Shown here in pieces: positions 22,693 through 41,034 of a stretch of 64,000 bases of DNA. Under the pieces are notes generated by a model that worked only from the letters and a program-made list of their open reading frames with translations, was not told the DNA's origin and did no database searches. The stretch's first letter is position 1, and every line of letters starts with the position of its first letter. Where the stretch lies: positions 186,001 through 250,000 of the forward strand of contig JALHRB010000002.1 of the NCBI GenBank assembly GCA_022841665.1. Reading direction: 5' to 3'. This DNA is from Pseudolabrys sp. GTDB lineage: Bacteria; Pseudomonadota; Alphaproteobacteria; Rhizobiales; Xanthobacteraceae. A program made the translations under genes and the position numbers.

Positions 22693-23676
22693 CTACCCCG
22701 CCGCCACCACCGCGCAGGTGGTCACGATGTCCTCCACGCTGGCGCCGCGCGACAGGTCGCTGATCGGCCGCGCGAAGCCCTGCAAAAACGGCCCAATCGC
22801 CTGCGCGCCGCCCAGCCATTGCGTCAGCTTGTAGCCGATATTGCCGCTGTCGAGATCGGGGAACACCAGCACGTTGGCGCGGCCCGCCACCTCGCTCGCG
22901 TCCTTCACCTTCTTTTGCGCCACCGCCGGCACCAGCGCGGCGTCCGCCTGGAACTCGCCATCGATGGCGAGGCCGGGCGCGCGTGCACGCGCGATCGCCA
23001 GCGCTTCGCGCACCTTGTCGATGCGGGCGTGCTGCGCGCTGCCCTTGGTCGAGAACGACAGCATCGCCACGCGCGGCGTCTCGCCGAGCAAGACTTGCGC
23101 GCTGCGCGCCGAGGCAATGGCAATGTCGGCGAGTTCTGCCGCGGTAGGATCGGCGTTCACCGCGCAGTCGGCGAACACGAACGGCCTGGCGCCTTGGCCG
23201 AGGAAGTTCGGCACCACGATGAGGAAATAGCTCGAGGGCAGCGCGATACCTTCGCTCAGGCCGACCGTCATCAAGCCGGCCTCGATCACGCGCCGCGTCG
23301 GATTGGCGGCGCCCGCCACCATGGCGTCGGCGTGGCCCTCGCGCACCATCATGCCGCCGAAGTAAAGCGGCTTCGAGATAAGCCGCGCCGACATCGCCGG
23401 CGTCATCGACGAGCGGACTTTCGACAAAGCCGCGCCGTAAGCCTGCAAACGCGCGTCGCTGCGCGGATCGGCGGTCTCGATCCCGTCGAGCGGGACTTTC
23501 GCTTCGCCCGCTGCCTGCGCGATCGCTTCCTTTGTTCCGAGCAGGATCGGCTGCGCGATTTTCTCATTTTTGAGACGCGCGGCCGCCGCGACGACGCGCG
23601 CATCGTCGCCTTCCGGCAAAACGATTTTGCGATAACGCCGCCGTGCGATATCAAGCAGTCTATCAGTTAAGTCCAT
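22693..23676 (-). CDS. pta: Phosphate acetyltransferase
   Basis: A 327-aa single-domain Pta that converts acetyl phosphate + CoA to acetyl-CoA. It has the PTA/PTB core: [14 protein letters not shown] near the N-terminus, then [38 protein letters not shown] and [27 protein letters not shown]. The length is that of short Pta enzymes, without the regulatory DRTGG domain of the ~700-aa form. No acetate kinase is adjacent, which argues for use in the acetyl phosphate -> acetyl-CoA direction, as in sulfonate users where Xsc makes acetyl phosphate. Start ATG 23676 ([13 protein letters not shown]) is the family N-terminus; the upstream 23 codons of open frame run through the operator and into the citrate synthase gene. 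Divergent from citrate synthase by 43 bp. Confidence 0.95.
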
Positions 23677-23679
23677 GCA

Positions 23680-23694
23680 TCTCACCGCGTGAGA
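23680..23694. promoter_or_regulatory. Palindromic operator candidate, pta/citrate synthase gap
   Basis: TCTCACCGCGTGAGA is a perfect 6-3-6 palindrome (TCTCAC-N3-GTGAGA) in the 43-bp divergent gap, covering the pta ribosome-site region. The same palindrome, differing at two of the three central bases, occurs at 25140-25154 before tctC. Binding by the IclR protein encoded at 28617-29486 is inferred. Confidence 0.65.
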
Positions 23695-23719
23695 CAATGC
23701 AGAAGCAGGCGAGGCATCA

Positions 23720-24862
23720 ATGACTGAAACAGCCGAAGCGATCAAGATTCATCGCGGCCTCACGGGTGTCTACTTCGACCGTTCGCCCTGCACCTTCATC
23801 GACGGCAAGGCCGGCGAGCTGCGCTATCGCGGCTATTCGATCCACGATCTGGCCGAGCATTCCTCCTTCGAGGAAACCGGCTGGCTGCTGCTCAACGGCG
23901 AACTGCCGACCAAGGCGCAGCTCGCCAGCTTCGACGCCGAGCTGAAAGCCGCGCGCAAGCTGCCGCCGGCCGTGCTCGACATCATCCGCGCCATCAAGCA
24001 CGCGCATCCGATGGACGTGCTGCGCACCGCGGTCTCCGCGCTTGCCGGCTTCGATCCGGAAACCGCCGACAATTCGCGCGAGGCCACCTTGCGCAAGGGC
24101 GTGCGGCTCACCTCGCAGGTGCCGATGATCGTCGCCGCCCATTCACGCATCCGCGCCGGCGAGGAGCCGGTGCCGGCCGACGAAAGCCTCAGCCACGCCG
24201 CCAACATTCTTTGGATGCTGACGGGCAAGAAGCCGAGCGCCGACGCCACGCAACTGATCGACCGCGATCTGATCCTGCACGCCGAGCACGGCTCCAACGC
24301 CTCCTCCTTCACGGCCCGCGTCGTCGTCGGCACGCAAGCCAACCTGCACGCCGCCATCACCGCGGCCATCGCCGCGCTGTCCGGTCCCGCGCATGGCGGC
24401 GCCGCCGAGGACGTCATGAAGATGGCGGAGGAAATCGGCGATCCGGCGCGCGCCGCCGACTACGTCAAGGAGAAGCGCAAAGCGGGCGTGGCCATCACCG
24501 GCTTCGGCCACCGCGTCTACCGCGCCGAGGACCCGCGCGCGCGCCACATGCGCGCCGGCGTCGAGCGGCTGTCCAAGGAAATGGGCCAGCCGAAGTGGTT
24601 CGAGATTCTGCAGGCGGTGGTGCAGGCCATGGCGCCTTACGCGCGCCACGGCGTCAACGTGAACGTCGATTTCTATTCCGGCGTCGTCTACCATCTGCTC
24701 GGCGTCAAGCGCGATCTGTTCGTGCCGATCTTCGCCATCGGCCGCGTGCCCGGCTGGTGCGTGCAGGTGCTCGAGCAACTGGAGAACAACATCCTGCTGC
24801 GCCCGCTCACGCTCTATAACGGCCCCGACGCCCGCGCCTACGTGCCGGTGGAGAAGCGCTAG
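23720..24862 (+). CDS. Citrate synthase (type I-like, short form)
   Basis: A 380-aa citrate synthase condensing acetyl-CoA with oxaloacetate. The three catalytic groups are visible: His in [11 protein letters not shown], His in [15 protein letters not shown] and Asp in [15 protein letters not shown]. The length and the [28 protein letters not shown] start fit the Bacillus-like short citrate synthase/2-methylcitrate synthase group rather than the long NADH-sensitive GltA, so it is probably a second, pathway-linked isozyme. Placed head to head with pta, and sharing an operator motif with the sulfonate operon, it would feed acetyl-CoA from sulfonate breakdown into the TCA cycle. A 2-methylcitrate synthase role cannot be ruled out. 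Confidence 0.93.
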
Positions 24863-24872
24863 ATTTTCCTTC

Positions 24873-24981
24873 ACCTCCCCCTGCAAGAGGGGAGGTCGAC
24901 CGCGAAGCGGTCGGGTGGGGTTCATTGCGCGTCACGTGTAAAGCCGACCCCCACCCCAACCCTCCCCCTTTAGGGGGAGGG
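24873..24981. repeat. Palindromic intergenic repeat, CTCCCC family (copy 3)
   Basis: The hairpins CCTCCCCCTgcaagAGGGGAGG and CCTCCCCCTttAGGGGGAGG flank ACCGCgaaGCGGT and a GACCCCCACCCC core. It lies right after the citrate synthase stop. Confidence 0.72.
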
Positions 24982-25287
24982 AGCGCGCCTTCTTCGTTGC
25001 GAGTCCGCCATTCCCGCCCTTTGAGAAACCCGCGGTTCCACGGCGCTTTTTCCGCGTCCTTGTCCCACCGTGCGGGACGCCCGGCCTCGATTTGCCGTTG
25101 CGGTGCTTTGGCGGTCTGTTATCGTTCTGAGATCGACGGTCTCACTGTGTGAGAAAACGCCGGGCGGCCTCGCGGCCGCGCCGGCTGCCAAATCCGGCGC
25201 GCATAAGCCGGAACGAAGAGTCTCCTCCCGGCAAGGCCGCGGGCGGGGGGACGGCAAAGAGCGGCCGAAGGTCAGGGAGGAATTTCC
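24982..25287. other. Upstream control region of the tctCBA-xsc-sauS cluster
   Basis: This 306-bp stretch holds no gene. It contains the operator palindrome at 25140-25154, an overlapping second dyad TGAGA-N7-TCTCA at 25128-25144, and a purine-rich ribosome site (AGGGAGGAATTTCC) before ATG 25288. The remainder shows no recognisable element; a promoter would be expected between about 25090 and 25150. Confidence 0.55.
25140..25154. promoter_or_regulatory. Palindromic operator candidate before tctC
   Basis: TCTCACTGTGTGAGA, a perfect 6-3-6 palindrome, 133 bp before the tctC start. It matches the palindrome at 23680-23694 at 13 of 15 positions and both are followed by an A-rich stretch. The overlapping dyad TGAGA-N7-TCTCA just upstream could be a second half-site. 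Confidence 0.68.
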
Positions 25288-26244
25288 ATGCGTTCGACCA
25301 CGCGAAGCTTCGTTGCGATTTTCGCCGCCGCACTGTGCGCCGTATTCGCCGGCGGCAAGGCGACGGCGGCCGGCTATCCCGAGCGGCCGATCGAACTGAT
25401 CGTGCCCTGGGGTCCCGGCGGCGGCGCCGACCAGCTCGCCCGCCTCGTGTCCAAGTTGATGGAGCCGATGCTCGGCCAGGGCATCCCGGTCGTGAACGTG
25501 CCCGGCGGCACCGGCGCCACCGGCATGGCCAAGCTCTTGGCCGCGCCGGCCGACGGCTACGCCATGGCGATCTACATCGCCGACAGCCACGCGCTGCTCG
25601 CCGGCAAAAGTCCGCGCTGGACCATGCAGGACATCACGCCGGTGGCGGTGATGATCAAGGGCCCGTCCTTCATCTTCGTGAAGCAGGATAGCCCGTACAA
25701 GACCTGGGCCGACTTCGAAAAGGACGCCAAGGCCAATCCCGGCAAGCTGAAGGTGGCGACGCTCGGCTTCGGCAGCGTCGACGACTTCTCGCTCTCGGTG
25801 CTGGCGCGCGGCGGCGTCAAGGTCGTGCAGGTGCCGTTCTCCAAGCCGAGCGAGCGCTACGTCTCGATCCTCGGCGGCCACGCCGATGCGCTCTACGAAC
25901 AGGCCGGCGACGTCGCCCAGTTCCTCAACAGCAAGCAGATGCGCCCGATCATGCTGTTCGGCGAGAAGCGCCTGCCGGCCTTCAAGGATACGCCGTCCTC
26001 GCACGAGCTCGGCTACAAGGTCGCGCTGCCGCAGTTCCGCGCCATCGTGATGCGCGCCGGCACGCCGCCGGATGTCGTCAAGAAGGTCTCCGACGCGCTC
26101 GCCAAGGTCGCCGCCTCGCCGGAATACAAGAAGTTCCTCGAGGAGCAGTTCGGCGATCCGGCCAGCTTCGAGGATGCGTCGAAGGCGCCCGCCTTCGTCA
26201 ACCAGCAGCTCGAAGACATGAAGAAGACGGTCGCGACGAACTAG
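25288..26244 (+). CDS. tctC: Bug/TctC-family solute receptor of a TTT transporter
   Basis: A 318-aa periplasmic receptor with a Sec signal (MRSTTRSFVAIFAAALCAVF…ATAA before GYPERPIELIVPWGPGGGADQLAR). The binding loops NVPGGTGATGMAKL and APADGYAMAIY are in the standard place. It begins an operon that continues with the small and large membrane subunits, so unlike the orphan at 3.2 kb this one has its channel. In the context of xsc, sauS and the SucCD-like ligase its ligand is likely sulfoacetate or a related small sulfonate. TTT systems are already known for sulfolactate (slc genes), which supports the idea; the ligand itself is inference. Confidence 0.93.
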   Translation: MRSTTRSFVAIFAAALCAVFAGGKATAAGYPERPIELIVPWGPGGGADQLARLVSKLMEPMLGQGIPVVNVPGGTGATGMAKLLAAPADGYAMAIYIADSHALLAGKSPRWTMQDITPVAVMIKGPSFIFVKQDSPYKTWADFEKDAKANPGKLKVATLGFGSVDDFSLSVLARGGVKVVQVPFSKPSERYVSILGGHADALYEQAGDVAQFLNSKQMRPIMLFGEKRLPAFKDTPSSHELGYKVALPQFRAIVMRAGTPPDVVKKVSDALAKVAASPEYKKFLEEQFGDPASFEDASKAPAFVNQQLEDMKKTVATN

Positions 26245-26255
26245 GACGCCAATGC

Positions 26256-26365
26256 GTCATGGCCGGGCACCAGGCGCAAAGCGCCGTCTTCGTGCCCGAT
26301 GTCCCGGCCATCCACGCCTTGCTTCTTGGCAAGACGTGGATGCCCGGCACAGGGCCGGGCATGAC
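26256..26365. repeat. Palindromic intergenic repeat, GTCATGGCCGGGC family
   Basis: GTCATGGCCGGGC at the left end mirrors GCCGGGCATGAC at the right, with internal hairpins around CCACGCCTTGC and GCAAGACGTGG. It lies between tctC and tctB without breaking the operon order. Confidence 0.7.
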
Positions 26366-26403
26366 GGCGGAGAGAATTGCGAACACTGAGCAAGGCCGGC
26401 ACC

Positions 26404-26940
26404 ATGGACAGAACCGCCATTCGCGCGACGCTGCCTTACGTCGTCGGCCTTGCCGTCGCCGCCGCGCTCTATCACTACGCGCGGCAGATCGAATTCGACC
26501 CGCGGCCGGGCGCGCTCGGCCCGGACTTCTGGCCGAAGACGGTCATCGTGCTGATGGCCCTCGTCTGCCTGTTCGAGATTGGCCGCATCCTGCTCGGCCT
26601 TAAAGGCGAGGCGCAGGGCGTGGCCGAAGTGCTCGAGGGCGAGGCGGACGAGGAAGACGCGCCGAAATATCCCGGCCTGCTCGCCGGCGGCATCGTGCTG
26701 GTGATCGTCTACGCGCTGGTCGTGAACACGGTCGGCTTCCTGCTCTCCACCTTCCTGTTCCTCGCCGCCTTCATGTATCTCGGCCGCTACCGCAATCACG
26801 TCGCGGTGTGGGCGACTAGCGGCGTCATCACGCTGATGTCGGCGGTGCTTTTCATGCGTATTGCTTACGTCTCACTGCCGCGCGGTGTGCCGCCTTTCGA
26901 TCTGGTCGCTGACGCCATCCGCGTTCTGCTGGGCGGATGA
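26404..26940 (+). CDS. tctB: TTT transporter small membrane subunit (TctB)
   Basis: A 178-aa protein with four hydrophobic segments: about 9-27, 43-63, then after an acidic loop (EGEADEEDAPKY) about 92-120 and 128-152. This is the TctB/DUF1468 plan. The motif RPGALGPDFWPK near residue 38 is typical of the family. It is the small partner of the TctA channel encoded downstream. Start ATG 26404 (MDRTAIRATLPYVV). Confidence 0.92.
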   Translation: MDRTAIRATLPYVVGLAVAAALYHYARQIEFDPRPGALGPDFWPKTVIVLMALVCLFEIGRILLGLKGEAQGVAEVLEGEADEEDAPKYPGLLAGGIVLVIVYALVVNTVGFLLSTFLFLAAFMYLGRYRNHVAVWATSGVITLMSAVLFMRIAYVSLPRGVPPFDLVADAIRVLLGG

Positions 26941-26971
26941 CCACGTCATGAGAAATGCGATCCATTCATTC

Positions 26972-27079
26972 GTCATTCCGGGTCGCGCTGAAAGCGCGAA
27001 CCCGGAATCCAGAAGCGCGGAACAGCTTTGCAGTGCCGCTGGATTCCGGGTCCGGCGCTGCGCGCCGTCCCGGAATGAC
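26972..27079. repeat. Palindromic intergenic repeat, GTCATTCCGGG family (copy 1)
   Basis: GTCATTCCGGG at the left mirrors CCCGGAATGAC at the right, with inner GCGCTgaaAGCGC-type hairpins and a GGAATCCA / TGGATTCC pair. A second copy is at 46731-46832. It lies between tctB and tctA. Confidence 0.75.
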
Positions 27080-27096
27080 AAGTCGAGATTCGCGTC

Positions 27097-28599
27097 ATGA
27101 GCCAGATTCTGCTGCAGCTCGGCCAGGGCTTTCTCGACTGCCTGACGCCGATCAACCTGATCATGCTGGTCGTCGGCATCGTGATCGGCCTTTTGATCGG
27201 CGTGCTGCCCGGCCTGACGCTGGTGATGGGCGTCGCGCTGGCGCTGCCCTTCACCTACAAGATGGACGTCACCGCCTCGATCGTGCTGTTGAGCGCGATG
27301 TACGTCTCCGGCACCTATGGCGGCGCCTTCACCGCGATTCTTTTCAGGATACCGGGTGAGCCGATCGACGTGCCCATGCTGTGGGACGGCTACACCATGG
27401 GGCGCAAGGGCCAGCCGGCCAAGGCGCTCGGCTGGACGCTGGTGGCCGCGCTCGGCGGCGGGCTCTTGTCCGCCACCATCATGGTGATGCTCACCCAGCC
27501 GCTCGCGCATTTCGCGCTGCGCTTCTCCACGCCGGAATATTTCGCCGTGCTGATGTTCGGGCTCAGCAGCGTGGTCGCGCTCGGCCGCGGCTCGCTCGGC
27601 AATGCGCTGATCAGCCTCGCGGTCGGGCTTTTGATCGCCACCGTCGGCACCGATGAGACCTACGGCGCCTCGCGCTTCACCTTCGACACCCGCATCCTCG
27701 CCGACGGCATCGAGTTCCTGGTGGTGATGGTGGGCGCCTATGGCGTCGGCGAGGTGCTGGCGCGGCTGGAGACGGGCTTTGCCACCAAGCCGATCCAGAA
27801 GGTCGGCCAGACGCGCACCGAACTGCCGAGCTGGCGCGAGATGAGCGCGCTCAAGGGTATGTTCCTGCGCTCCAGCGTCCTCGGCAACATCATCGGCCTT
27901 ATTCCCGGCGCCGGCGCTACCATCGCTTCCTTTGTCAGCTACGGCATGGAAGCGCAGTTCGGCAAGCGCCGGAAAGAGATGGGCACCGGCGTCGCCGAGG
28001 GCATCGTCGCCCCGCAGGCGGCCGCCACCGCCTCGGTCGGCGGCGCGCTGGTGCCGCTCTTGGCGCTCGGCATTCCCGGCTCCGGCGCCACCGCCATCAT
28101 CCTCGGCGCCTTCATGCTGCACGGCATCCAGCCCGGCCCGCAGGTGATGGCGACCTCGGCGCACACCGTCTACGCCGTCTTCGCCTCGATCTATCTCGGC
28201 CTCGCGCTGATGTGCGTGATCGGCTATTTCGCCATCCGCCCGCTGGTGAAGATCCTCGACATGCCCGAGGCCATCGTCTCGGCTTACGTGCTCACGCTCT
28301 GCTTCATCGGCGCGCTGTCCATCCGCAACAACGTCATCGACCTCTGGCTGATGATCGGCTTCGGCGTCGTCGGCTACGCCTTCGAGCGGCTCAAATTCCC
28401 GGTCGCCCCGCTCGTGCTCGGCGTCATCCTCGGGCCCTTGGCCGAGGCTTCCTTCATGAACACCATGATCAGCTTCGGCAACGACTGGACGGTGTTCTTC
28501 ACGCGGCCCATCGCCGGCACGGTGATGGTCTTTACTTTTGCAATGCTCGCTCTTCCCTTTTTGCAGCAGTGGCGCGCGCGCCGCGTCGCGGCTGCGTGA
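27097..28599 (+). CDS. tctA: TTT transporter large membrane subunit (TctA)
   Basis: A 500-aa permease with about eleven to twelve helices. The TctA signature near the start, GIVIGLLIGVLPGLTLVMGVALALPFTYKM, and the second half-repeat (NIIGLIPGAGATIASFVSYGMEAQFGKR…GVAEGIVAPQAAATASVGGALVPLLALGIPGSGATAIILGA) give the two conserved Gly/Pro-rich re-entrant motifs. It makes the ion-coupled channel for the solute delivered by TctC. Confidence 0.96.
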   Translation: MSQILLQLGQGFLDCLTPINLIMLVVGIVIGLLIGVLPGLTLVMGVALALPFTYKMDVTASIVLLSAMYVSGTYGGAFTAILFRIPGEPIDVPMLWDGYTMGRKGQPAKALGWTLVAALGGGLLSATIMVMLTQPLAHFALRFSTPEYFAVLMFGLSSVVALGRGSLGNALISLAVGLLIATVGTDETYGASRFTFDTRILADGIEFLVVMVGAYGVGEVLARLETGFATKPIQKVGQTRTELPSWREMSALKGMFLRSSVLGNIIGLIPGAGATIASFVSYGMEAQFGKRRKEMGTGVAEGIVAPQAAATASVGGALVPLLALGIPGSGATAIILGAFMLHGIQPGPQVMATSAHTVYAVFASIYLGLALMCVIGYFAIRPLVKILDMPEAIVSAYVLTLCFIGALSIRNNVIDLWLMIGFGVVGYAFERLKFPVAPLVLGVILGPLAEASFMNTMISFGNDWTVFFTRPIAGTVMVFTFAMLALPFLQQWRARRVAAA

Positions 28600-28616
28600 T
28601 TTGAATCAGGTGACTC

Positions 28617-29486
28617 ATGCGTAGCAATGTCGGTCTCGATACACGGCCCCCGGACACCGCCCCCCGCCGCACCGTGGCCGAACTCAAGCCGGTCGTTCGC
28701 CCGGCCAAGCCCGCGCGCCAGCGCGAGCAGAAGCTGGGGGCCACCGCGCGCTCCTTTGCCATCCTCGAGCACGTCGCAAGCTCGCGCGCGCCCGTGGACG
28801 TGCTCGACATCATCGCCACCCTGAAGCTGCCGAAGGCGACCGCCTACCGGCTGGTCGACTGGTTCGTCACCCATGGCTACCTGTCGCGCGAGCCAGGCCG
28901 CCGCCGTCTCATCGTCGGCCCCAAGCTCACCAACCTCGCCTTCGGCGCGCTGTCGGCCTCGATGCGCAACGACACGCCGCACGTGGTGCTGCAGCGCCTC
29001 GTGCACACGCTCAACGAGACCTGCAATATCGGCACGCTGCTCAACGGCGAGGTGGTCTATCTCGACCGCGTCGAGGCCGACCACTGGCCGCTGCGCCTGC
29101 ATTATACGTCGGGCTCGCGCGTGCCGCTGCACTGCAGCGCCATCGGCAAGCTTTATCTGGCGCTGGCGCCGTCGCCGCGCCGCAAGCGCCTCCTGCAAAG
29201 CCTCGAGCTGCGCAAGTTCACCGACAACACCCTCGTCGACGGCGGCAAGCTCGAGGCCGAGCTGCGCCAGATCCGCAAGGAGCAGGTCTCTTTCGACCGC
29301 GAGGAATACCTCATGGGCGTGATCTGCATGGCGGTGCCGGTCATCGGCAAGAACGGCGAGTTGCTCGCCGCGCTCGCCATCCAGGCGCCGGAGGCGCGCA
29401 TGAACGTGCAAACGGCGCGCCGCCATCTGCCCGCGCTGCGCAACGCCGCCAGCGAGCTGGCGGAAATCTTCCAGGCCTCGGCCTGA
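28617..29486 (+). CDS. IclR-family transcriptional regulator
   Basis: A 289-aa regulator. A ~40-residue Arg/Pro-rich lead is followed by the winged helix-turn-helix (ARSFAILEHVASSRAPVDVLDIIATLKLPKATAYRLVDWFVTHGYLSREPGRRRLIVG, about 43-105) and the IclR effector domain (…NIGTLLNGEVVYLDRVEADHWPLR…GSRVPLHCSAIGKLYLA…). It sits between tctA and xsc in the same direction, so it is likely the local regulator, responding to a sulfonate or its CoA ester. The paired TCTCAC-N3-GTGAGA palindromes are the best candidate target sites, since IclR proteins bind short palindromes. Confidence 0.93.
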   Translation: MRSNVGLDTRPPDTAPRRTVAELKPVVRPAKPARQREQKLGATARSFAILEHVASSRAPVDVLDIIATLKLPKATAYRLVDWFVTHGYLSREPGRRRLIVGPKLTNLAFGALSASMRNDTPHVVLQRLVHTLNETCNIGTLLNGEVVYLDRVEADHWPLRLHYTSGSRVPLHCSAIGKLYLALAPSPRRKRLLQSLELRKFTDNTLVDGGKLEAELRQIRKEQVSFDREEYLMGVICMAVPVIGKNGELLAALAIQAPEARMNVQTARRHLPALRNAASELAEIFQASA

Positions 29487-29517
29487 TCTCTCAAAGTTCT
29501 TCAGGAGTGATTTAGTT

Positions 29518-31293
29518 ATGAAGATGACGACGGAAGAAGCATTCGTGAAGGTTCTGCAGATGCACGGCATCGAGCATGCCTTCGGCATCATCGGGTCGGC
29601 CTTCATGCCGATCTCGGACCTGTTCCCGAAGGCGGGCATCACCTTCTGGGACGTGGCGCACGAGACCAATGGCGGCCTGATCTGCGACGGCTATACCCGC
29701 TCGACCGGCAAGATCGCCATGGCGATCGCGCAGAACGGTCCCGGCATCACCAACTTCGTCACCGCCATCAAGACCGCCTACTGGAACCACACGCCGATGC
29801 TGCTGGTCACGCCGCAGGCGGCCAACAAGACCATCGGGCAGGGCGGCTTCCAGGAAGTCGAGCAGATGGCGCTGTTCCGCGACATGGTCTGCTACCAGGA
29901 AGAAGTGCGCGATCCTTCGCGTACGGCCGAGGTCCTCAACCGCGTCATCTCCAAGGCCAAGCGCCTGTCGGCGCCGGCGCAGATCAATTTCCCGCGCGAC
30001 TACTGGACGCAGGTGATCGACATCACCCTGCCGGCCATCGTCGACTTCGAGCGCCCGGCCGGCGGCGCCAACGCCGTGGCCGAAGCGGCCAAGCTGTTGT
30101 CGGAGGCCAAGTTCCCGGTCATCCTGTCCGGCGCCGGCGTCGTGCTCGCCAACGCGATCCCCGATTGCGTCGCGCTGGCCGAGAAGCTCGACGCGCCGGT
30201 CTGCAACAACTACCAGCACAATGACAGCTTCCCCGGCAGCCACCGGCTCGCCGTCGGCCCGCTCGGCTACAACGGCTCGAAGGCGGCCATGGAGCTGGTC
30301 GCCAAGGCCGACGTGGTGCTGGCGCTCGGCACGCGCCTCAATCCGTTCTCGACGCTGCCCGGCTACGGCATCGATTACTGGCCGAAGACCGCCAAGATCA
30401 TCCAGGTCGACATCAACGCCGACCGCATCGGGCTGACCAAGCCGGTCACCGTCGGCATTTGCGGCGACGCCAAGCTGGTCGCTCGAAGCATCCTCGCGCA
30501 GCTCGCGCCCACCGCCGGCAATGCCGGCCGCGAGGAGCGCAAGAACCTGATCCACGACACCCGGTCCAAGTGGCTGCAGACGCTGTCCAGCATGGACCAC
30601 GAGGACGACGATCCGGGCACCACCTGGAACGCCGACGCGCGCAAGCGCGACGCCGACCGCATGTCGCCGCGCCAGGCCTGGCGCGCGATCCAGGCCGGCC
30701 TGCCGAAGGACGCCATCATCTCGAGCGACATCGGCAACAACTGCGCCATCGGCAACGCCTATCCGACCTTCGAAAAGGGCCGCAAATACCTGGCGCCCGG
30801 CCTGTTCGGGCCTTGCGGCTACGGCTTCCCGTCGATCATCGGCGCCAAGATCGGCAACCCCGACACGCCTTGCGTCGGCTTTGCCGGCGACGGCGCCTTC
30901 GGCATCTCCATGAACGAGATGAGCTCGCTTGGCCGCGAAGAGTGGCCCGGCATCACCATGGTCATCTTCCGCAACTATCAGTGGGGCGCCGAGAAGCGCA
31001 ATTCGATCCTCTGGTACGACGACAACTTCGTCGGCACCGAGCTCGATCCGCATCTCTCTTACGCCAAAGTGGCGGAAGGCTGCGGGCTCAAGGGCGTCAC
31101 CGTGAAGACGCAGACCGAACTGACGGAGGCGCTGCGCAAGGCCTGCGAGGACCAGAAGAAGCGCATCACCACCTTCATCGAGGTGATCCTCAATCAGGAA
31201 CTGGGCGAGCCGTTCCGCCGCGATGCCATGAAGAAGCCGGTGGTCGTCGCCGGCATCCGGCGCGAGGACATGCGCCCGCAACAGGTTGCTTAG
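29518..31293 (+). CDS. xsc: Sulfoacetaldehyde acetyltransferase (Xsc)
   Basis: A 591-aa ThDP enzyme that converts sulfoacetaldehyde + phosphate to acetyl phosphate + sulfite. It has the three-domain ThDP architecture: PYR-domain Glu in DVAHETNGGLICDGYTR, a central domain (VILSGAGVVLANAI…), and the PP-domain motif GFAGDGAFGISMNEMSSLGR with the closing Asn in FRNYQWGAEKRN. The QYNWGAEK-like element and length match Xsc (about 590 aa) rather than acetolactate synthase or glyoxylate carboligase. The ribosome site CAGGAG lies before ATG 29518. The next gene supplies the substrate by reducing sulfoacetyl-CoA; pta at 22.7 kb handles the acetyl phosphate. Confidence 0.95.
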   Translation: MKMTTEEAFVKVLQMHGIEHAFGIIGSAFMPISDLFPKAGITFWDVAHETNGGLICDGYTRSTGKIAMAIAQNGPGITNFVTAIKTAYWNHTPMLLVTPQAANKTIGQGGFQEVEQMALFRDMVCYQEEVRDPSRTAEVLNRVISKAKRLSAPAQINFPRDYWTQVIDITLPAIVDFERPAGGANAVAEAAKLLSEAKFPVILSGAGVVLANAIPDCVALAEKLDAPVCNNYQHNDSFPGSHRLAVGPLGYNGSKAAMELVAKADVVLALGTRLNPFSTLPGYGIDYWPKTAKIIQVDINADRIGLTKPVTVGICGDAKLVARSILAQLAPTAGNAGREERKNLIHDTRSKWLQTLSSMDHEDDDPGTTWNADARKRDADRMSPRQAWRAIQAGLPKDAIISSDIGNNCAIGNAYPTFEKGRKYLAPGLFGPCGYGFPSIIGAKIGNPDTPCVGFAGDGAFGISMNEMSSLGREEWPGITMVIFRNYQWGAEKRNSILWYDDNFVGTELDPHLSYAKVAEGCGLKGVTVKTQTELTEALRKACEDQKKRITTFIEVILNQELGEPFRRDAMKKPVVVAGIRREDMRPQQVA

Positions 31294-31302
31294 AGGTCCG
31301 AC

Positions 31303-32727
31303 ATGACAGTTGCAGTTAAACCGGTGGCCGATCCGGCCGCGCAGGCGGTCGTAGACGAATTGGTCAGGCGCGCCCGCAAGGCGATGGCAGAGTTCGCCGA
31401 CGCCGACCAGGCGCGCACCGACGAGGCGGTCACCGCGCTCGCCTGGTCGCTGTACAATCCGGCGCACGCCAGGGAGCTGGCCGAGCTCGCGGTCGCCGAC
31501 ACCAAGCTCGGCAACGTGCCCGACAAGATCATCAAGAAGACGCGCAAGACCTTCGGCACCTTGCGCGACCTGCTGCGCGTGAAGTCGGTCGGCATCATCG
31601 AAGAGGACAAGGCGCGCGGCATCGTCAAATACGCCAAGCCGGTCGGCGTCGTCTGCGCCATCACGCCCTCGACCAATCCCGGCGCCACCCCGGTCAACAA
31701 GGCGATGATGGCGATCAAGGGTAGGAACGCCATCATCATCGCGTCCTCGCCCGCCGGCATGAAGACGACCGGCAAGACCGTCGACTACATGCGCGCCGAG
31801 CTGCGCAAGATCGGCGCGCCCGAGGACCTCGTCCAGATTCTGCCGCCGCCGGCGTCGAAGGACATGACGCAGGCGCTGATGAAGGCGGCCGACCTGATCG
31901 TGGCCACCGGCTCGCAGGACAACGTGCGCCGCGCCTATTCGTCCGGCACGCCGGCGATCGGCGTCGGTACCGGCAATGTGCCGGTGATCATCGACGAGAC
32001 CGCCGACCTCGACGACGCGGCGCGGAAAATTTGCGCCTCGAAGATTTTCGACAACTCTACCTCATGCTCGTCGGAGAACTCGGTCGTCATCGTCGACGCC
32101 GTCTACGACCAGGCCATCGCCGCGCTGGAGCGCGCCGGCGGCTACTTGGCGACCGCGGCCGAGAAGGCCAAGATCCAGGCTGCGCTGTGGCCGGACGGCA
32201 AGCTTTCGCGCACGCTGATCGCGCGCGACGCCGACGTGCTCGCCAAGGGCTGTGGCTTGCCGGCCGAAGCCGAGAAGAAGAAGTTCTTCATGGTCGAGGA
32301 GACCGGCGTCGGCCGCGACTACCCGTTCTCGGGCGAGAAGCTCGCGCTGGTGCTCACCGTCTACCGCGCCGAGGATTTCGACGCCGCGGTGACCCAGGCC
32401 AACGACATCCTCGCCCACCAGGGCCGCGGCCATTCGGTCGGCCTGCACACCAAGGATATGGCGCGCGGGCGCAAGCTTGCCGAGCAGTCCGACGTGGTGC
32501 GCGTGCTGATCAACCAGGCGCACACTTTCGGCAACGGCGGCGGCTTCGACAACGGGCTGAACTTCACGCTGTCGATGGGCTGCGGCACCTGGGGCGGCAA
32601 CTCCATCACCGACAACCTCAACTACATGAACTTCCTCAACATCACCCACCTCGTCACCACCATCCCCGAGGACAAGCCGAGCGAGGAAGAGCTGTTCGGC
32701 AAGTACTGGGAAAAATACGGGAAGTAG
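31303..32727 (+). CDS. sauS: CoA-acylating sulfoacetaldehyde dehydrogenase (SauS)
   Basis: A 474-aa member of the acylating aldehyde dehydrogenase group (EutE/AdhE-N type). Visible elements: the nucleotide-binding region (PVGVVCAITPSTNPGATPVNK), the VTGSQDNV-like ATGSQDNVRRAYSSG stretch, catalytic Cys in FDNSTSCSSEN, and the C-terminal NQAHTFGNGGGFDNGLNFTLSMGCGTWGG block. The pattern fits SauS of Cupriavidus necator, which reduces sulfoacetyl-CoA to sulfoacetaldehyde. Its position 9 bp after xsc and before an ADP-forming CoA ligase pair supports this over acetaldehyde or propanal chemistry; no microcompartment genes are present. Confidence 0.9.
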   Translation: MTVAVKPVADPAAQAVVDELVRRARKAMAEFADADQARTDEAVTALAWSLYNPAHARELAELAVADTKLGNVPDKIIKKTRKTFGTLRDLLRVKSVGIIEEDKARGIVKYAKPVGVVCAITPSTNPGATPVNKAMMAIKGRNAIIIASSPAGMKTTGKTVDYMRAELRKIGAPEDLVQILPPPASKDMTQALMKAADLIVATGSQDNVRRAYSSGTPAIGVGTGNVPVIIDETADLDDAARKICASKIFDNSTSCSSENSVVIVDAVYDQAIAALERAGGYLATAAEKAKIQAALWPDGKLSRTLIARDADVLAKGCGLPAEAEKKKFFMVEETGVGRDYPFSGEKLALVLTVYRAEDFDAAVTQANDILAHQGRGHSVGLHTKDMARGRKLAEQSDVVRVLINQAHTFGNGGGFDNGLNFTLSMGCGTWGGNSITDNLNYMNFLNITHLVTTIPEDKPSEEELFGKYWEKYGK

Positions 32728-32737
32728 AAGCAATCAG

Positions 32738-32833
32738 GTCGTCCCCGCGAAAGCGGGGACCCAGTACGCCGCAGTTCCTCGATAGGGCACGGCGTACTGG
32801 ATCCCGGGTCTCGCTGCGCTCGCCCGGGATGAC
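32738..32833. repeat. Palindromic intergenic repeat, family B (copy 1)
   Basis: The left hairpin GTCCCCGCgaaaGCGGGGAC runs into CCAGTACGCCG…CGGCGTACTGG and ends with the CCCGGGTCTCGCT…CGCCCGGGATGAC hairpin. Family B copies are at 37148-37260, 41035-41177, 48252-48351, 49305-49448 and 50017-50120. It lies between sauS and the ligase beta gene. Confidence 0.85.
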
Positions 32834-32859
32834 GGCAACTGTATTAGCGGAAACACTGC

Positions 32860-33987
32860 ATGAACTTCGAAGAACACGCCGCCAAATCGCTGATCCTTGC
32901 GCCCGCGGGAATCCCCGTGCCGCGCGGCATGCTGGTCGCGAGCGCCGCCGAGGCCGCCAAGGCGGCCAAGGAGATCGGCCCTTGCGTGGTGAAGGCGCAG
33001 GTGCCGACCGGCAAGCGCGGCAAGGCCGGCGGCATCAAGCTCGCCGGCACGCCGGCCGAGGCCGAGCAGGTCGCCGGGAAAATCCTCGGCATGACCATCG
33101 GCGACTACACGGTCGAGCGGCTACTGATCGAGGAGCAGGCCAAGATCGTGCGCGAGTTCTATCTCGCCGTCTTGCACGACACCGGCGCCAAAAAGCCGCT
33201 GATCCTGTTCTCCACCGAAGGCGGCATGGACATCGAGGAGGTGGCGGCCGAAAAGCCGGACGCCATCCGCCGCCTGCTGGTCGACATCGACAACGTCCCG
33301 CGCGGGCGCGACATCGCCGCGCTGCTCAAAGGGCTCGACCTCGGCGCCGCCGAGCAGCAGATCGCGCAGATCGTCGATAACCTCTACCGCGCCTTCCGCA
33401 CCCGCGACGCCGAGCTGCTGGAGATCAACCCGCTCGCCTTGCTCGGCGACGGCCGTGTGGTCGCGCTCGACTGCAAATTCGTGCTCGACGACGCGTCTAC
33501 CTTCCGCCAGCCCGATCTCGCGCCGGCCGGCAGCCCGCCGGCCATGACCGATCTCGAGCGCCGCGGCGCCGAGGCCGGCCTCAAGCTCATCCAGCTCGAC
33601 GGCAATGTCGGCGTGCTGGCGAACGGCGCGGGCCTCACCATGACGACGATGGACGTCATCCGCCATTTCGGCGGCAAGCCCGCCAACTTCCTGGAGATCG
33701 GCGGCGAGGCCTACACCAAGTCCGAGATCGCGCTCGACCTCGTGCTCTCAAACCCCGGCGTCAAAAGCCTGGTCATCAACTTCTGCGGCGCCTTCGCCCG
33801 CACCGACGTGATGGCCGACGGCGTCGTGAAAGCCTGGCACAAGCTGAAGCCGAAAGTACCGGTGTTCTTCTCCATCCACGGCACCGGCGAAGTCGAGGCC
33901 GTGAAGCTCGTCAAGGAGCAACTCGGCATCGAACCCTACGATTTCATGGAAGACGCCGTGCAGGCGGCGGTGAAGGCGGCGCAATGA
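32860..33987 (+). CDS. SucC-like ADP-forming acyl-CoA ligase beta subunit (candidate sulfoacetate-CoA ligase)
   Basis: A 375-aa ATP-grasp subunit of the succinyl-CoA synthetase family. The N-terminal ATP-grasp (MNFEEHAAKSLILAPAGIPVPRG, VVKAQVPTGKRGKAGGIKLAG) is followed by LLEINPLALLGDGRVVALDCKFVLDD with the Mg2+/ATP ligands, and the C-terminal flavodoxin-like part (LDGNVGVLANGAGLTMTTMDVI…GGEAYTKSEIALDLVL). It is divergent from housekeeping SucC (DGNIGCMVNGAGLAMATMD type) in the substrate loops and lies away from other TCA genes. With SauS and Xsc upstream, activation of sulfoacetate to sulfoacetyl-CoA is the most economical role; SucCD-type sulfoacetate-CoA ligases have, as I recall, been reported as SauCD. 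Stop overlaps the alpha gene by 4 bp. Confidence 0.88.
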   Translation: MNFEEHAAKSLILAPAGIPVPRGMLVASAAEAAKAAKEIGPCVVKAQVPTGKRGKAGGIKLAGTPAEAEQVAGKILGMTIGDYTVERLLIEEQAKIVREFYLAVLHDTGAKKPLILFSTEGGMDIEEVAAEKPDAIRRLLVDIDNVPRGRDIAALLKGLDLGAAEQQIAQIVDNLYRAFRTRDAELLEINPLALLGDGRVVALDCKFVLDDASTFRQPDLAPAGSPPAMTDLERRGAEAGLKLIQLDGNVGVLANGAGLTMTTMDVIRHFGGKPANFLEIGGEAYTKSEIALDLVLSNPGVKSLVINFCGAFARTDVMADGVVKAWHKLKPKVPVFFSIHGTGEVEAVKLVKEQLGIEPYDFMEDAVQAAVKAAQ

Positions 33988-34883
33988 TCGTTCGTAAAAA
34001 AGACAAGGTCGTCGTGCTCGGCATCACCGGCAAGCAGGGCACCTTCTGGACCGAAAAGATGATCGCCTACGGCACCAACGTGGTGGCCGGCATCAATCCC
34101 AAACGCGCGGGCGAAACGCATGTCGGCGTGCCGATCTTCGCCTCCACGGCGGAAGCCGCCAAGGCGGTCGGCGCCGACGTCGCCGTCGGCTTCATCCCGC
34201 CGCCGATGGCCAAGGACGCCGCCGTCTCCGCCGCAGAGGCCGGCGTGAAGCTGCTGGTCGTGCTCACCGAGCACATCCCGGCGCAGGATGTGATGGCCAT
34301 GCACGCCGCCGCGGCCAAGCACGGCACCCGCATCGTCGGCCCCAACACCGCCGGCCTGGTCACGCCCGGCGAATGCTTCGTCGGCATCATGCCGGCCTTC
34401 GTGCCCAGCGTGTTCAAGCCCGGCCGCGTCGGCGTCATCTCGCGCAGCGGCTCGCTCGGCACGCTCATCTGCCTCAACCTCACGCGCGCCGGCATCGGCC
34501 AGTCCGCCTTCATCGGCATCGGCGGCGACCCGATGCTCGGCACCACCACGCGCGATGCGCTCGAAGCGCTCGACAAAGATGCCGGCACCGACGCCGTCGT
34601 CATCGTCGGCGAGATCGGCGGTGGCATGGAGGAGGCGGCGGCCGAATATGCGCGCACCATGAAGAAGCCGATGGTCGCCTTCATCGCCGGCGCCGCCGCG
34701 CCGCCGGGCAAGAAGATGGGCCACGCCGGCGCCATCGTCACCGGAAGCACCGGCAGCTATGCCGGCAAGCGAAAGGCGTTGGAAGCCGCCGGTGTCGTGG
34801 TCGTGGATACCCCCTCGCAAATCGCGACGGCGCTCGCCGCCGGCCTCGGCGCTGCCGGCCGTCAGCGCGCCGTCAGCCAGTAA
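33984..34883 (+). CDS. SucD-like ADP-forming acyl-CoA ligase alpha subunit (candidate sulfoacetate-CoA ligase)
   Basis: A 299-aa partner of the preceding beta subunit, coupled by ATGA overlap. The CoA-binding Rossmann domain (VVVLGITGKQGTFWTEKMIAYGTNVVAGINPKRAGE) and the ligase domain with the phosphorylated His in GKKMGHAGAIVTGSTGSYAGKR are intact, as is the GPNTAGLVTPGE loop. It forms the enzyme that spends one ATP (to ADP) to make the CoA ester. It is followed by a YeiH-type exporter 10 bp downstream. A succinate/malate-CoA ligase role is the alternative. Confidence 0.9.
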   Translation: MIVRKKDKVVVLGITGKQGTFWTEKMIAYGTNVVAGINPKRAGETHVGVPIFASTAEAAKAVGADVAVGFIPPPMAKDAAVSAAEAGVKLLVVLTEHIPAQDVMAMHAAAAKHGTRIVGPNTAGLVTPGECFVGIMPAFVPSVFKPGRVGVISRSGSLGTLICLNLTRAGIGQSAFIGIGGDPMLGTTTRDALEALDKDAGTDAVVIVGEIGGGMEEAAAEYARTMKKPMVAFIAGAAAPPGKKMGHAGAIVTGSTGSYAGKRKALEAAGVVVVDTPSQIATALAAGLGAAGRQRAVSQ

Positions 34884-34893
34884 GGAAATTTCC

Positions 34894-35952
34894 GTGGCCG
34901 CTCCTCCCATCCCCGAGGCCAGCCGGCCGTTGCCGGACACCTTGATCGATCTCGCGCCCGGCGTCGTGCTGTCCGCCGCCGTCGCCATCGTCGGCTATCT
35001 CGCCGCGCCTTATGTCGGGCGCGTGGTGCCGATCCCGGCCATGGTGATTGCGCTCATCGTCGGCATCGCGCTCAACCCGGTCGCGACGCGCGCGACGACG
35101 CAGCCCGGCATGGCCTTCTGCGTGCGCACGGTGCTGCGCTGGGCGGTGGCTTTGCTCGGCCTGCGCGTGGGCTTGGGCGAGATCGCCGCGCTCGGCGCCG
35201 GCACCGCGATCCTCATCGTCGTCGCCATGATCGTCACCGTGTTCTCCGGCTTCCTGTTCGCGCGCTGGAACAAGCAGGCGGCGCCCTTCGGCGCGCTGGT
35301 CGGCGTCGGTGTCGCCGTGTGCGGGGCCTCCGCCACGCTCGCCACCTCCACCGTGGTGCCGGACTACAAGGGCAAGCAGGCCGACATCGCCTTCGTCGTG
35401 GTCGCGGTCAACGCGCTCGCCACCTTCGCCATGATCGGCTACACGCCGCTTTGCATTCTGCTCGGCTTCGATCCGCAGACCACCGGCGTCATGCTGGGCG
35501 GCACCATCCACGACGTGGCGCAGGTGGTCGGCGCCGGCTACGCGGTGTCCGACGCGGTCGGCAACACCGCGGTCATCGTCAAGCTGTTCCGCGTGTTCCT
35601 GCTGCTGCCGATGGTGCTGGCGGTCGGCTGGTACTTCACGCGCCAGGGCGCGCAGCACGGCGAGGCGCGCGTGCCGGTGCCGGTCTTCGCCATCGTCTTC
35701 CTGGTGCTGTGCATCGTGAACAGCGCGGTGCCGCTCGCGCCCTCGCTGATGCCGCTCTATGCGCCGGTGAAGAGCGTGCTGGTGGAAGCCTCCACCTGGG
35801 GCCTCTTGCTTGCCATCGGCGCGCTCGGCTTGGGCACCTCGGTGAAGACCATCGTCGGACTTGGCTGGCGCCACGTCACCACCGTGCTCGGCTCGAGCGC
35901 TGTGATCCTGGTGGTCGTGACGGTGGGGCTGGTGGTGTTAAGGGCACTCTGA
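34894..35952 (+). CDS. YeiH/TauZ-family (UPF0324) putative sulfate/sulfite exporter
   Basis: A 352-aa integral membrane protein with about ten helices. The family landmarks are AVALLGLRVGLGEIAALG, VGVGVAVCGASATLATSTVVPDYKGKQADIAFVVVAVNALATFAMIGY and GGTIHDVAQVVGAGYAVSD…AVIVKLFRVFLLLPMV. Proteins of this family (TauZ, YeiH, PSE) often sit next to xsc and are proposed to expel sulfite or sulfate produced by desulfonation. Start GTG 34894 follows AAGGAAATTTCC. It is the last gene of the sulfonate cluster and is followed by a palindromic repeat. No sulfite dehydrogenase is seen in the window, so the anion exported could be sulfite, or sulfate made by an enzyme encoded elsewhere. Confidence 0.92.
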   Translation: MAAPPIPEASRPLPDTLIDLAPGVVLSAAVAIVGYLAAPYVGRVVPIPAMVIALIVGIALNPVATRATTQPGMAFCVRTVLRWAVALLGLRVGLGEIAALGAGTAILIVVAMIVTVFSGFLFARWNKQAAPFGALVGVGVAVCGASATLATSTVVPDYKGKQADIAFVVVAVNALATFAMIGYTPLCILLGFDPQTTGVMLGGTIHDVAQVVGAGYAVSDAVGNTAVIVKLFRVFLLLPMVLAVGWYFTRQGAQHGEARVPVPVFAIVFLVLCIVNSAVPLAPSLMPLYAPVKSVLVEASTWGLLLAIGALGLGTSVKTIVGLGWRHVTTVLGSSAVILVVVTVGLVVLRAL

Positions 35953-35960
35953 CTTTTTTA

Positions 35961-36076
35961 CCTCCCCCTGAAAGGGGGAGGTCGCCCGCAGAGCGAAGCG
36001 ATGGCGGGCGGGTGGGGGTCAATTTGTAGCGTCGATACGACCCCCTCCCTGACCCTCCCCCATTAAGGGGGGGGGG
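35961..36076. repeat. Palindromic intergenic repeat, CTCCCC family (copy 4)
   Basis: The hairpin CCTCCCCCTgaaAGGGGGAGG, internal CGCCCGC…GCGGGCG pairing and a mirrored GACCCCCTCCCTGACCCTCC end. It separates the convergent exporter and cupin genes. Confidence 0.75.
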
Positions 36077-39220: not shown

Positions 39221-40090
39221 CTACCTGCGGGCCGCCACGTACCAATCGAGAATCTTCTCGCCGTTCCAGGCCACTACGCCATCGTGGGCCAGGATATCGG
39301 CGAAGGTCCGCTCCACATGGCCGATGCGATGCGGCACGCCGGAAAGATAGGGGTGGCAGGCGATGGCCATGATCTTCGGCCGTTCGGCCGATTCGGCGTA
39401 CAGCGTATTGAAATGATCGAGCGCGCGGGTGTGCCATTCCGCCGAGGGCAGGTGCTGCAGCGCCATCATCACAATGTCGTGGATTTCGAAGTTGTAGGGC
39501 AAGGCGACCACGGGCTTGTGGGCGGTCCGCACCGTGACCGGCTCGTCGTCGAGCACCCAGTCGCCGATGTATTCGATGCCGGCCTCGGACAGGTAATCGA
39601 GCGTCTCGAAGGTCTGGGTCAGGCCCGGACCGAACCAGCCGCGCGGCCGCTTGCCCGAGAATTTCTCGATGACGTCCATCGATTTCATGATGACGGCGCG
39701 CTGGTCGTCCAGCTTGTGCATCGGTACTTGGTCGTAGCTGTGGGCGTTGAGCTCCCAGCCGCTGTCGAGGCAGGCCCGCGCGACCTGCGGGTACGTCTCG
39801 CAGACCTTGGCATTGAGGGTGACGGTCGGGCTGATCCCGAGCTTGAGCATCATCTTGCGGATACGCCAGAACCCGACGCGCATGCCGTATTCGTGCCAGC
39901 TCCAGTTCGGATGGTCGGGCTGCATGGGCTGGCCTTGCGGCGGCGAAATCACCATGCGCGCCATCGGCCGGCTCATGTCCCATTCTTCCAGGGCCAGCAC
40001 CGGCCAGACCACCAGCCGGACGCCCTCGGGGAATTTCAAGGGCGGCCGGTTTTCGATCGGCAAATAGTCAAGCCGTTCGCGCGGGTGCAT
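39221..40090 (-). CDS. Polysaccharide deacetylase (NodB/PuuE-like) paralogue 1
   Basis: A 289-aa member of the carbohydrate-esterase-4/NodB superfamily in its PuuE (allantoinase) branch. It shares with the two paralogues the blocks PNWSWHEYGMRVGFWR, LNAKVCETYPQVA, GWELNAHSYDQVPMHK, GKRPRGWFGPGLTQTFETLDYL, GDWVLDDEPV and IACHPYLSGVPHRI. There is no signal peptide, so it works in the cytosol and is unlikely to act on a polymer. PuuE-type proteins open the ring of allantoin and similar cyclic amides. It starts 3 bp downstream of paralogue 2. Confidence 0.9.
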   Translation of the reverse strand: MHPRERLDYLPIENRPPLKFPEGVRLVVWPVLALEEWDMSRPMARMVISPPQGQPMQPDHPNWSWHEYGMRVGFWRIRKMMLKLGISPTVTLNAKVCETYPQVARACLDSGWELNAHSYDQVPMHKLDDQRAVIMKSMDVIEKFSGKRPRGWFGPGLTQTFETLDYLSEAGIEYIGDWVLDDEPVTVRTAHKPVVALPYNFEIHDIVMMALQHLPSAEWHTRALDHFNTLYAESAERPKIMAIACHPYLSGVPHRIGHVERTFADILAHDGVVAWNGEKILDWYVAARR

Positions 40091-40093
40091 GGG

Positions 40094-41005
40094 TTACGGC
40101 GCCTTCGGCCCGGACTTGAGGAACCAGTCGGCGATCTGCCCGCCGGTCCAGAACAGCACGTCCTTCTTCTTCCTGATCTTCTCGAAGATCATGCGGAAAT
40201 ACTTGGCCCGGTGCGGCGCACCCATGATGTAGGGGTGCACCGAGATCGCCATCACGCGCGCCGAATCGAGCGCCTTGGCGTCGCGGTAGATCTGCTCGAA
40301 CTGGTCCATCGCCCGCTCGTAGAACTCGCTCGCCTTGTGGTGCTGGATCAGCATCATGGCGACGTCGTTGCATTCCTGCGTGTAGGGGATGTTGAGGATC
40401 GGCTTGCCGCGGGTCTTGAGCCACACCGGCTGGTCGTCGAGCACCCAGTCTGCGACGTAGTCGTAGCCTTCCTCGGCGAGAATATCGGGCGTCTCCCAGG
40501 TCTCGGTCAGGCCGGGCCCAAGCCAGCCGCGCGGGCGCTTGCCCGTGGCCTTCTCGATCACCGCGATGCATTTGCGGATGTCGGCGCGCTCGTTCTCCAC
40601 TTTCTGCATGTTGCGCTGGGTGTAGCCGTGGCCGATGAATTCCCATTTGCGGTCGACGCAGGCCTTCACCAGCTCGGGGAAGGCCTCCACCGCCACGCCG
40701 TTGATGTTCATCACGCCCGGAATCTTGAAGTCGTCATAGACCTGCATCAGCCGCCAGAAGCCGACGCGGTTGCCGTATTCGTGCCAGCACCAGTTCGGGA
40801 TGTCCGGCATCGGCGAGCCGCCGGCCGGCGGCGTCAGCACGGTGCGCGGCATGGTCTGGGTCGGGTCCCAGTCCTCGACGTTGGTGACGGTCCACACCAC
40901 CATCTTCGCCTTGTTCGGCAGCTTCAGCGCCTTGCGCTGCGGGATGGGCGAATAGGCGATGCGGTCGTTCGGCAGCATGCCGACATTGGGCTTGGCGTAG
41001 TTCAT
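40094..41005 (-). CDS. Polysaccharide deacetylase (NodB/PuuE-like) paralogue 2
   Basis: A 303-aa cytosolic paralogue with the same blocks: PNWCWHEYGNRVGFWR, INGVAVEAFPELVKA, GHGYTQRNMQKVEN, GKRPRGWLGPGLTETWETPDIL, ADWVLDDQPV and ISVHPYIMGAPHRA. Where paralogues 1 and 3 keep a second His in the H-x-Y-x-Q-x-x-x-H segment (HSYDQVPMH, HAYEQGPIH), this one has Gln (HGYTQRNMQ), so its metal site or substrate contacts probably differ. The family is related to PuuE allantoinase and to fungal-type chitin/peptidoglycan deacetylases. Confidence 0.9.
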   Translation of the reverse strand: MNYAKPNVGMLPNDRIAYSPIPQRKALKLPNKAKMVVWTVTNVEDWDPTQTMPRTVLTPPAGGSPMPDIPNWCWHEYGNRVGFWRLMQVYDDFKIPGVMNINGVAVEAFPELVKACVDRKWEFIGHGYTQRNMQKVENERADIRKCIAVIEKATGKRPRGWLGPGLTETWETPDILAEEGYDYVADWVLDDQPVWLKTRGKPILNIPYTQECNDVAMMLIQHHKASEFYERAMDQFEQIYRDAKALDSARVMAISVHPYIMGAPHRAKYFRMIFEKIRKKKDVLFWTGGQIADWFLKSGPKAP

Positions 41006-41034
41006 GGGTTGGTTCCTGTCGCGAATGTTGGGCC

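Follow-up and report, generated by a model that had tools for sequence, protein, structure and literature searches.

Sulfoacetate arises when sulfoquinovose and taurine are broken down, and we describe here a gene cluster that would allow an alphaproteobacterium to use it, located at positions 22,693 to 35,952 of a 64,000-nucleotide stretch of DNA (the window) from Pseudolabrys sp. The genome is a draft (3.85 Mb, 125 contigs, 95% complete, 4.8% contamination), and the window lies on its contig C2. Systems close to this cluster have been described before. In Bilophila wadsworthia, the ADP-forming ligase SauCD acts with SauS (PMC12890257), in a route that includes SauXYZ, a tripartite tricarboxylate transporter (TTT) (Liu X. 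et al. 2023, as cited in PMC12890257 and PMC12625764). The metagenome-assembled genome of a sponge symbiont, OTU3 of the order Arenicellales, encodes sauSCD and a TTT, with xsc and pta also in the genome (PMC12625764). Cupriavidus necator H16 has SauS, SauT and SauU (Weinitschke 2010, as cited in PMC12625764), and its regulator SauR responds to sulfonatoacetate (PMC7057948). Related enzymes have been put to other uses: SqwD and SqwKL of the sulfo-transketolase (sulfo-TK) variant work in the opposite direction (Chu et al. 2023, as cited in PMC12890257 and PMC11489063), and HpfYZ of Enterococcus gilvus is a specific 3-sulfopropionate-CoA ligase, inactive with sulfoacetate (PMC11489063).

The window locus resembles each of these systems in part. 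It has in common with B. wadsworthia an ADP-forming-type ligase predicted to act on sulfoacetate, SauS and a TTT transporter, but whereas the Bilophila route continues via TauF to isethionate and the radical enzyme IseG, the window locus would continue via Xsc, Pta and citrate synthase; no isethionate sulfolyase is found among the identified locus genes, the rest of the genome not having been searched. Like the sponge symbiont it has sauS, sauCD and TTT genes together and xsc and pta in the genome; in the window, however, xsc, pta and a citrate synthase gene stand at the same locus, while the passages on the symbiont do not place them in the cluster. C. necator shares SauS, a C2 route via sulfoacetyl-CoA and sulfoacetaldehyde, and a dedicated regulator, SauR, said to be IclR-type, but it uses SauT, reportedly AMP-forming, and the major facilitator superfamily (MFS) carrier SauU where the window locus has an ADP-forming-type ligase and TctCBA. 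Among the identified locus genes there is no AMP-binding protein (SauT), and TctCBA occupies the place of an MFS carrier (SauU), the rest of the genome having been searched for neither. SqwD and SqwKL are likewise a CoA-acylating sulfoacetaldehyde dehydrogenase and an ADP-forming sulfoacetate-CoA ligase, but they run in the opposite direction, in fermenters and with sulfoquinovose breakdown, and HpfYZ is another succinate-CoA-ligase-family pair turned to a sulfonate. A preliminary description of this DNA had taken the combination of a TTT with a SucCD-type ligase to be new, which it is not, given SauCD–SauS in Bilophila (PMC12890257) and sauSCD with a TTT in the sponge symbiont (PMC12625764). 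The locus is a member of an already described kind, and its additions are a citrate synthase that we did not find in print and a predicted operator.

We propose that the locus forms a regulon for the catabolism of sulfoacetate, reaching from TctCBA uptake through citrate synthase, a reading to which we give a probability of roughly 0.84 on the strength of gene content and comparison. TctCBA would import sulfoacetate, and SauCD, a ligase of the succinyl-CoA-synthetase type, would convert it via a phosphohistidine to sulfoacetyl-CoA as ATP goes to ADP and phosphate. SauS would reduce sulfoacetyl-CoA to sulfoacetaldehyde, which Xsc would cleave with phosphate to sulfite and acetyl phosphate; Pta would then form acetyl-CoA, and a dedicated citrate synthase would pass it into the tricarboxylic acid (TCA) cycle. 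A YeiH-type protein would export sulfite or sulfate, and an IclR-type regulator would control both promoters via TCTCA-N5-TGAGA. Very probably, then, the cluster lets its host take up sulfoacetate, remove the sulfur and feed the carbon to the energy cycle.

Open reading frames and family searches placed all of the named genes where the preliminary description had them and in the same order: pta on the minus strand, then, on the plus strand, citrate synthase, tctC, tctB, tctA, iclR, xsc, sauS, the sucC-like and sucD-like genes and a yeiH-like gene. The open reading frames of the locus show the third-codon-position GC bias of coding sequence. The tight same-strand spacing noted earlier holds from xsc onward, but its extent was understated, as close spacing already begins at tctC, from which point the largest same-strand gaps are 132–156 bp with starts as called. 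In the best named locus, L041 ('uncultured Rhizobiales bacterium'), all 14 genes compared, copA to pyrE, are in identical order, and in the congener G393 the same gene order extends over two contigs, with the break inside xsc; because the order recurs in these relatives, the arrangement is not due to chance. The pta, citrate synthase, xsc, sauS, sauC and sauD genes are 83–95% identical to their L041 and G393 counterparts.

Two enzymes of the proposed route exceed their equivalog cut-offs by wide margins. Xsc, the sulfoacetaldehyde acetyltransferase (29518–31293, plus strand), scores 962 bits against a TIGR03457 cut-off of 676.4, and SauS, the CoA-acylating sulfoacetaldehyde dehydrogenase (31303–32727, plus strand), scores 803 bits against 600 for NF047625; each is the sole match above its cut-off in the draft genome. 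Pta, the phosphate acetyltransferase (22693–23676, minus strand), matches PF01515 and scores 317.8 bits against 311.2 for TIGR00651, so that both members of the desulfonation pair are above cut-off. No other gene of the draft genome exceeds this cut-off; a second match, in a 775-aa frame on contig C18, falls below it. The pta open reading frame extends to 23745, and the ATG at 23676 on the minus strand is the more likely start. Comparison supports the sulfoacetate route with SauS and Xsc–Pta put forward in the preliminary description.

Adjoining SauS is a two-subunit ATP-grasp/CoA-binding ligase with a phosphohistidine loop, distinct from SucCD. The beta subunit (sauC-type, 32860–33987, plus strand; PF08442) falls just below NF001913 (356.2 against a cut-off of 370) and below TIGR01016 (326.2 against 375.55), and the alpha subunit (sauD-type, 33984–34883, plus strand; PF02629 and PF00549) is below TIGR01019 (342.6 against 353.2). 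A housekeeping SucC, 41% identical to the window protein, is encoded on contig C5. When 111 sequences were placed in a tree, 73 SauC-type and 38 SucC-type rows fell on opposite sides of one branch (Shimodaira–Hasegawa-like approximate likelihood ratio test support 98); the tree was run quickly, has some long branches and takes its group labels from identity to the window gene. The loops EINPL, GEIGG and GHAGAI, the last holding the phosphohistidine, are kept relative to Escherichia coli SucC/SucD and relatives in the rows displayed. The window pair shares neither the clade nor the conserved columns of SucC and SucD: 41 beta and 28 alpha columns are at least 85% fixed within each group and differ between groups (73 SauC against 34 SucC rows, leaving out the four odd sucC rows L175, L176, L178 and L184, and 62 SauD against 27 SucD rows, with duplicates of the window gene removed). 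These columns are scattered over both chains and include ATP-grasp changes and a deletion near E. coli beta 82–88. Four stretches are changed, NIFGGI to NFCGAF, DVGG to EIGG, GPNCPG to GPNTAG and SGTLTYE to SGSLGTL, and, as in succinyl-CoA synthetase, they would line the acyl/CoA site; the literature searched yielded no paper on the SucCD succinate site. The diagnostic residues, like the palindrome described below, are simple markers, and they help to separate likely sulfoacetate ligases from succinyl-CoA synthetase where the family models match both.

Co-occurrence of the ligase with SauS was assessed without bias in 385 genomes of the class: 24 have SauS above cut-off and 14 have the SauC type (counted at E ≤ 1e-95), all 14 of them among those 24, and by coordinates sauC lies within ~200 bp of sauS in every one. 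Among the ten SauS genomes without the SauC type, SauS stands at a contig end in one (G292), and the remainder may use another ligase. In 47 chosen genomes, a SauC-type match of at least 57% was present in 14 of 24 SauS-positive and 0 of 23 SauS-negative genomes, the next best match being 43%, and a search of relatives with the general SucC model added two SauC-type genes, in G393 and G397, both adjoining sauS. Together with the clade, this co-occurrence supports by comparison the earlier proposal that an ADP-forming SucCD-type ligase replaces the AMP-forming SauT. The ADP-forming SauCD route is known from a gut anaerobe, and the window locus with its relatives suggests that it is distributed among alphaproteobacteria as well, often with Xsc.

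The genes around SauS vary. In the named loci, which are the best 80 of 586 relatives and hence biased towards the window SauS, sauC stands beside SauS in 60 and sauD in 59, tctA lies within 9 kb in 30, and Xsc is near in 28 (20 at ≥70% identity and 8 at 40–60%), pta in 8 and the window type of citrate synthase in 5. One cultivated carrier of sauSCD is Hansschlegelia zhihuaiae (L042). A gene from a sequence cluster of AMP-binding ligases, of which one member was tested, is present in 10 of these best 80 loci, nine of them without sauC. The 60 sauC loci carry a TTT in 24 cases, a carrier from one of two MFS sequence clusters in 10 (assigned by clustering, with one member per cluster tested) and neither within the stretch in 26. 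Because ligase and carrier types vary in this way, the activation and uptake modules look interchangeable, as the suspicion of modularity had it. The Xsc-like proteins at 40–60% identity form a second type, seen in L107 (15943–17715) and seven other loci, and the L107 copy, the one member tested, passes the TIGR03457 cut-off. In four loci, L055, L073, L090 (6459–9876) and L101, sauS-sauC-sauD lies just downstream of B12-dependent mutase genes; all four have B12-binding and MutE-type genes, and three have MutL-type genes (by clusters, the families being tested in L090, and MutE also in L055). We know of no sulfoacetate route with a B12-dependent mutase, and the mutase may feed another substrate into the sauSCD module. 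A gene of ~1000 aa lies downstream of sauSCD in L070, L072, L105 and L117; the copy in L070 has matches to molybdopterin oxidoreductases that reach no cut-off, and the gene perhaps encodes a sulfite dehydrogenase.

At the window locus, tctC (25288–26244, PF03401), tctB (26377–26940, PF07331) and tctA (27097–28599, PF01970), all on the plus strand, encode the substrate-binding protein, the small membrane subunit and the large membrane subunit of a TTT that stands beside the SauCD and SauS genes, and TctC, the proposed sulfoacetate receptor, matches solved TTT/Bug-type binding proteins. Comparison at this locus supports the view that the TTT serves in place of the SauU carrier. Both the substrate and the direction of flow are inferred. 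The steps could run the other way, SauCD and SauS being in principle reversible, so that sulfoacetaldehyde derived from taurine or isethionate would be oxidised via sulfoacetyl-CoA to sulfoacetate, with a gain of ATP and export of the product, the direction reported for SqwD/SqwKL (PMC12890257). A TTT with a binding protein is, however, a type of importer, Xsc beside SauS already uses up sulfoacetaldehyde, and no gene for sulfoquinovose breakdown or taurine entry is present among the identified locus genes (taurine entry was not searched elsewhere in the genome), so we judge reversal very unlikely.

Other observations weigh against sulfoacetate catabolism as the function of the locus. The SucD-like protein narrowly exceeds the succinate-ligase cut-off of NF004230 (339.3 against 336), a TTT is near sauCD in only those 24 of 60 loci, and the specificity of a TTT is not readable from sequence. 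Neither ligase type was detected with SauS in 11 of the 80 named loci, three of which end within 400 bp. In G401, a genome outside the class survey that came from the search with the general SucC model, the sauCD genes (L227:7659–11550) have no SauS within ~9.5 kb upstream or ~6.5 kb downstream on an 18-kb stretch, so the pair may act on something else in some organisms; close to them is a PTA_PTB-family gene that shares 42–53% identity with genes of Acidocella, Acidiphilium and further SauS loci. The YeiH-like protein matches PF03601 (194.5 against 24.5) but fails TIGR00698, the putative sulfate exporter model (108.9 against 232.6), and because the genome is a draft with contamination, the statements about single copies are provisional. 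Di- and tricarboxylates are common ligands of TTT proteins, and together with NF004230 and the G401 pair this would fit a SucCD-like ligase and TTT that serve succinate, malate or a similar dicarboxylate and stand beside xsc-sauS by coincidence. We hold this to be highly improbable, as SauS accompanies the SauC type throughout the class survey, the pair forms a separate clade with changed conserved loops, the malate-CoA ligase beta cut-off is far off (NF010647, 270.9 against 604) and a housekeeping SucC is encoded elsewhere. On the same grounds we rejected a succinate or malate ligase as the identity of the window pair.

Two places in the proposed sulfoacetate locus hold the same palindrome, which was spotted by reading the sequence: TCTCACCGCGTGAGA at 23680–23694, between the divergent pta and citrate synthase genes, and TCTCACTGTGTGAGA at 25140–25154, upstream of tctC. 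An exact search of the 64 kb returned these two only, with none in 100 shuffles, and the looser form TCTCA-N5-TGAGA again returned these two only against 0.025 expected, but the figures are overstated because the motif was chosen after both copies had been seen. Both positions are kept in L041, where the pta–citrate synthase copy is exact, and in G393, where that copy has one mismatch, and the tctC palindrome is also present in L043 within otherwise diverged DNA. Its retention at the two sites in L041 and G393, both close relatives, suggests a single IclR-type regulon. The IclR-family gene (28617–29486, plus strand) matches PF09339 and PF01614 without reaching an NCBIfam cut-off; lying inside the operon, it encodes the obvious candidate regulator, whose binding to these sites we infer. 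Across the named loci, TCTCA-N5-TGAGA occurs 12 times, against a mean of 0.69 and a highest count of 5 for 29 other orders of the half-site letters. Counting the one in G393, 13 palindromes were placed, and 10 of them are no more than 350 bp before or after an estimated tctC, citrate synthase, xsc or iclR start; those in L044, L045 and L059 are away from these starts. Two results count against a common operator: the palindrome is present in only 10 of the 80 loci, and by raw count it ranks 41st of 1,024 half-sites, a ranking topped mostly by GC-rich half-sites.

The citrate synthase (23720–24862, plus strand) scores 433.8 against 421.3 for the subfamily model TIGR01800 and reaches no equivalog cut-off, and a second citrate synthase elsewhere in the genome is 36% identical to it. 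Copies at least 65% identical are found in 5 of the 385 class genomes, and a draw across the phylum gave 4 of 398 genomes, three already known plus G610 at 64%. Eleven other members of the genus were searched, several with incomplete genomes, and G393 alone has it, so that the locus looks patchy within the genus. These proteins form a clade of 12 (support 100/99; group labels taken from identity to the window citrate synthase) that includes the congener and five named loci. Within the clade, pta adjoins in 11 of 12 and xsc lies within 7 kb in 10 of 12, in several gene orders; in two of those ten, L071 and L091, the partner is the second Xsc type. Citrate synthases found independently of SauS have both pta and xsc in six of seven cases. 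One locus, L083, ends at a contig edge just past pta, and the G312 gene stands 1 kb from a contig end, with neither pta nor xsc on 12 kb of the other side.

No sauS was found in the citrate synthase stretches of G022, G331 and G610, nor any SauS above cut-off in the whole genomes of G022 and G331, and because the clade thus also occurs in clusters without SauS, its citrate synthase goes with Xsc–Pta and not with SauCD. In G022 the neighbourhood includes a class-III aminotransferase, a GntR/aminotransferase-type regulator, TauE and a molybdopterin oxidoreductase with a DmsC-like subunit, and looks like a taurine route. Shared palindrome and clade linkage agree with the earlier proposal that the citrate synthase belongs to the window route, and on both grounds we rejected chance adjacency of citrate synthase and pta. 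The wider possibility that Pta and citrate synthase have nothing to do with the cluster beside them draws on their mutual divergence, the 425 bp between citrate synthase and tctC, the lack of both genes near most sau loci and the absence of the palindrome from eight other citrate synthase loci scanned (L062, L071, L083, L091, L220, L221, L225 and L226). It is nevertheless unlikely, given a palindrome common to the pta–citrate synthase gap and the tctC promoter in three genomes and a clade that keeps its partners through differing gene orders.

We lean towards the view that in some alphaproteobacteria sulfonate catabolism through Xsc has a regular partner in a dedicated citrate synthase, which is separate from the housekeeping enzyme and coupled to Pta, and that in this genus and a near relative TCTCA-N5-TGAGA wires it into one IclR regulon with the uptake and activation of sulfoacetate. 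A literature search lacking most subscription papers found no paper on an xsc-linked citrate synthase. If this view is right, the desulfonation module reaches from cleavage of the C–S bond to the entry step of the TCA cycle. The xsc-linked enzyme raises the testable question of why a separate citrate synthase would be required for growth on C2 sulfonates.

The last gene of the cluster encodes the YeiH-like PF03601 membrane protein (34894–35952, plus strand), the proposed sulfite or sulfate exporter; the GTG at 34894, with a ribosome-site-like AAGGAA, is its more likely start. The 132-bp gap between sauS and sauC (32728–32859) is filled by a dispersed palindromic repeat (RNA fold z = -4.9), of which several partial copies occur elsewhere in the window, in related stretches near 37150, 41030, 48257, 49360 and 50022, and on other contigs. 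A related repeat in opposite orientation sits in this gap in L041, and in G393 the gap is ~9 bp. A second kind of dispersed intergenic repeat is present at 24863–24985 (between citrate synthase and tctC), 35957–36074 (after yeiH) and 10333–10439. A sigma-70 scan gave 0 promoter-like sites and a terminator scan 17 against 8.0 expected, and neither result was used. Outside the cluster, positions 39221–48256 of the window encode three polysaccharide-deacetylase/PuuE-like proteins, two of which do not reach the PuuE cut-off. The same positions hold parts of a branched-chain-type ABC transporter and a match to SsuA-family binding proteins that is below cut-off, and they are possibly another locus for uptake and hydrolysis.

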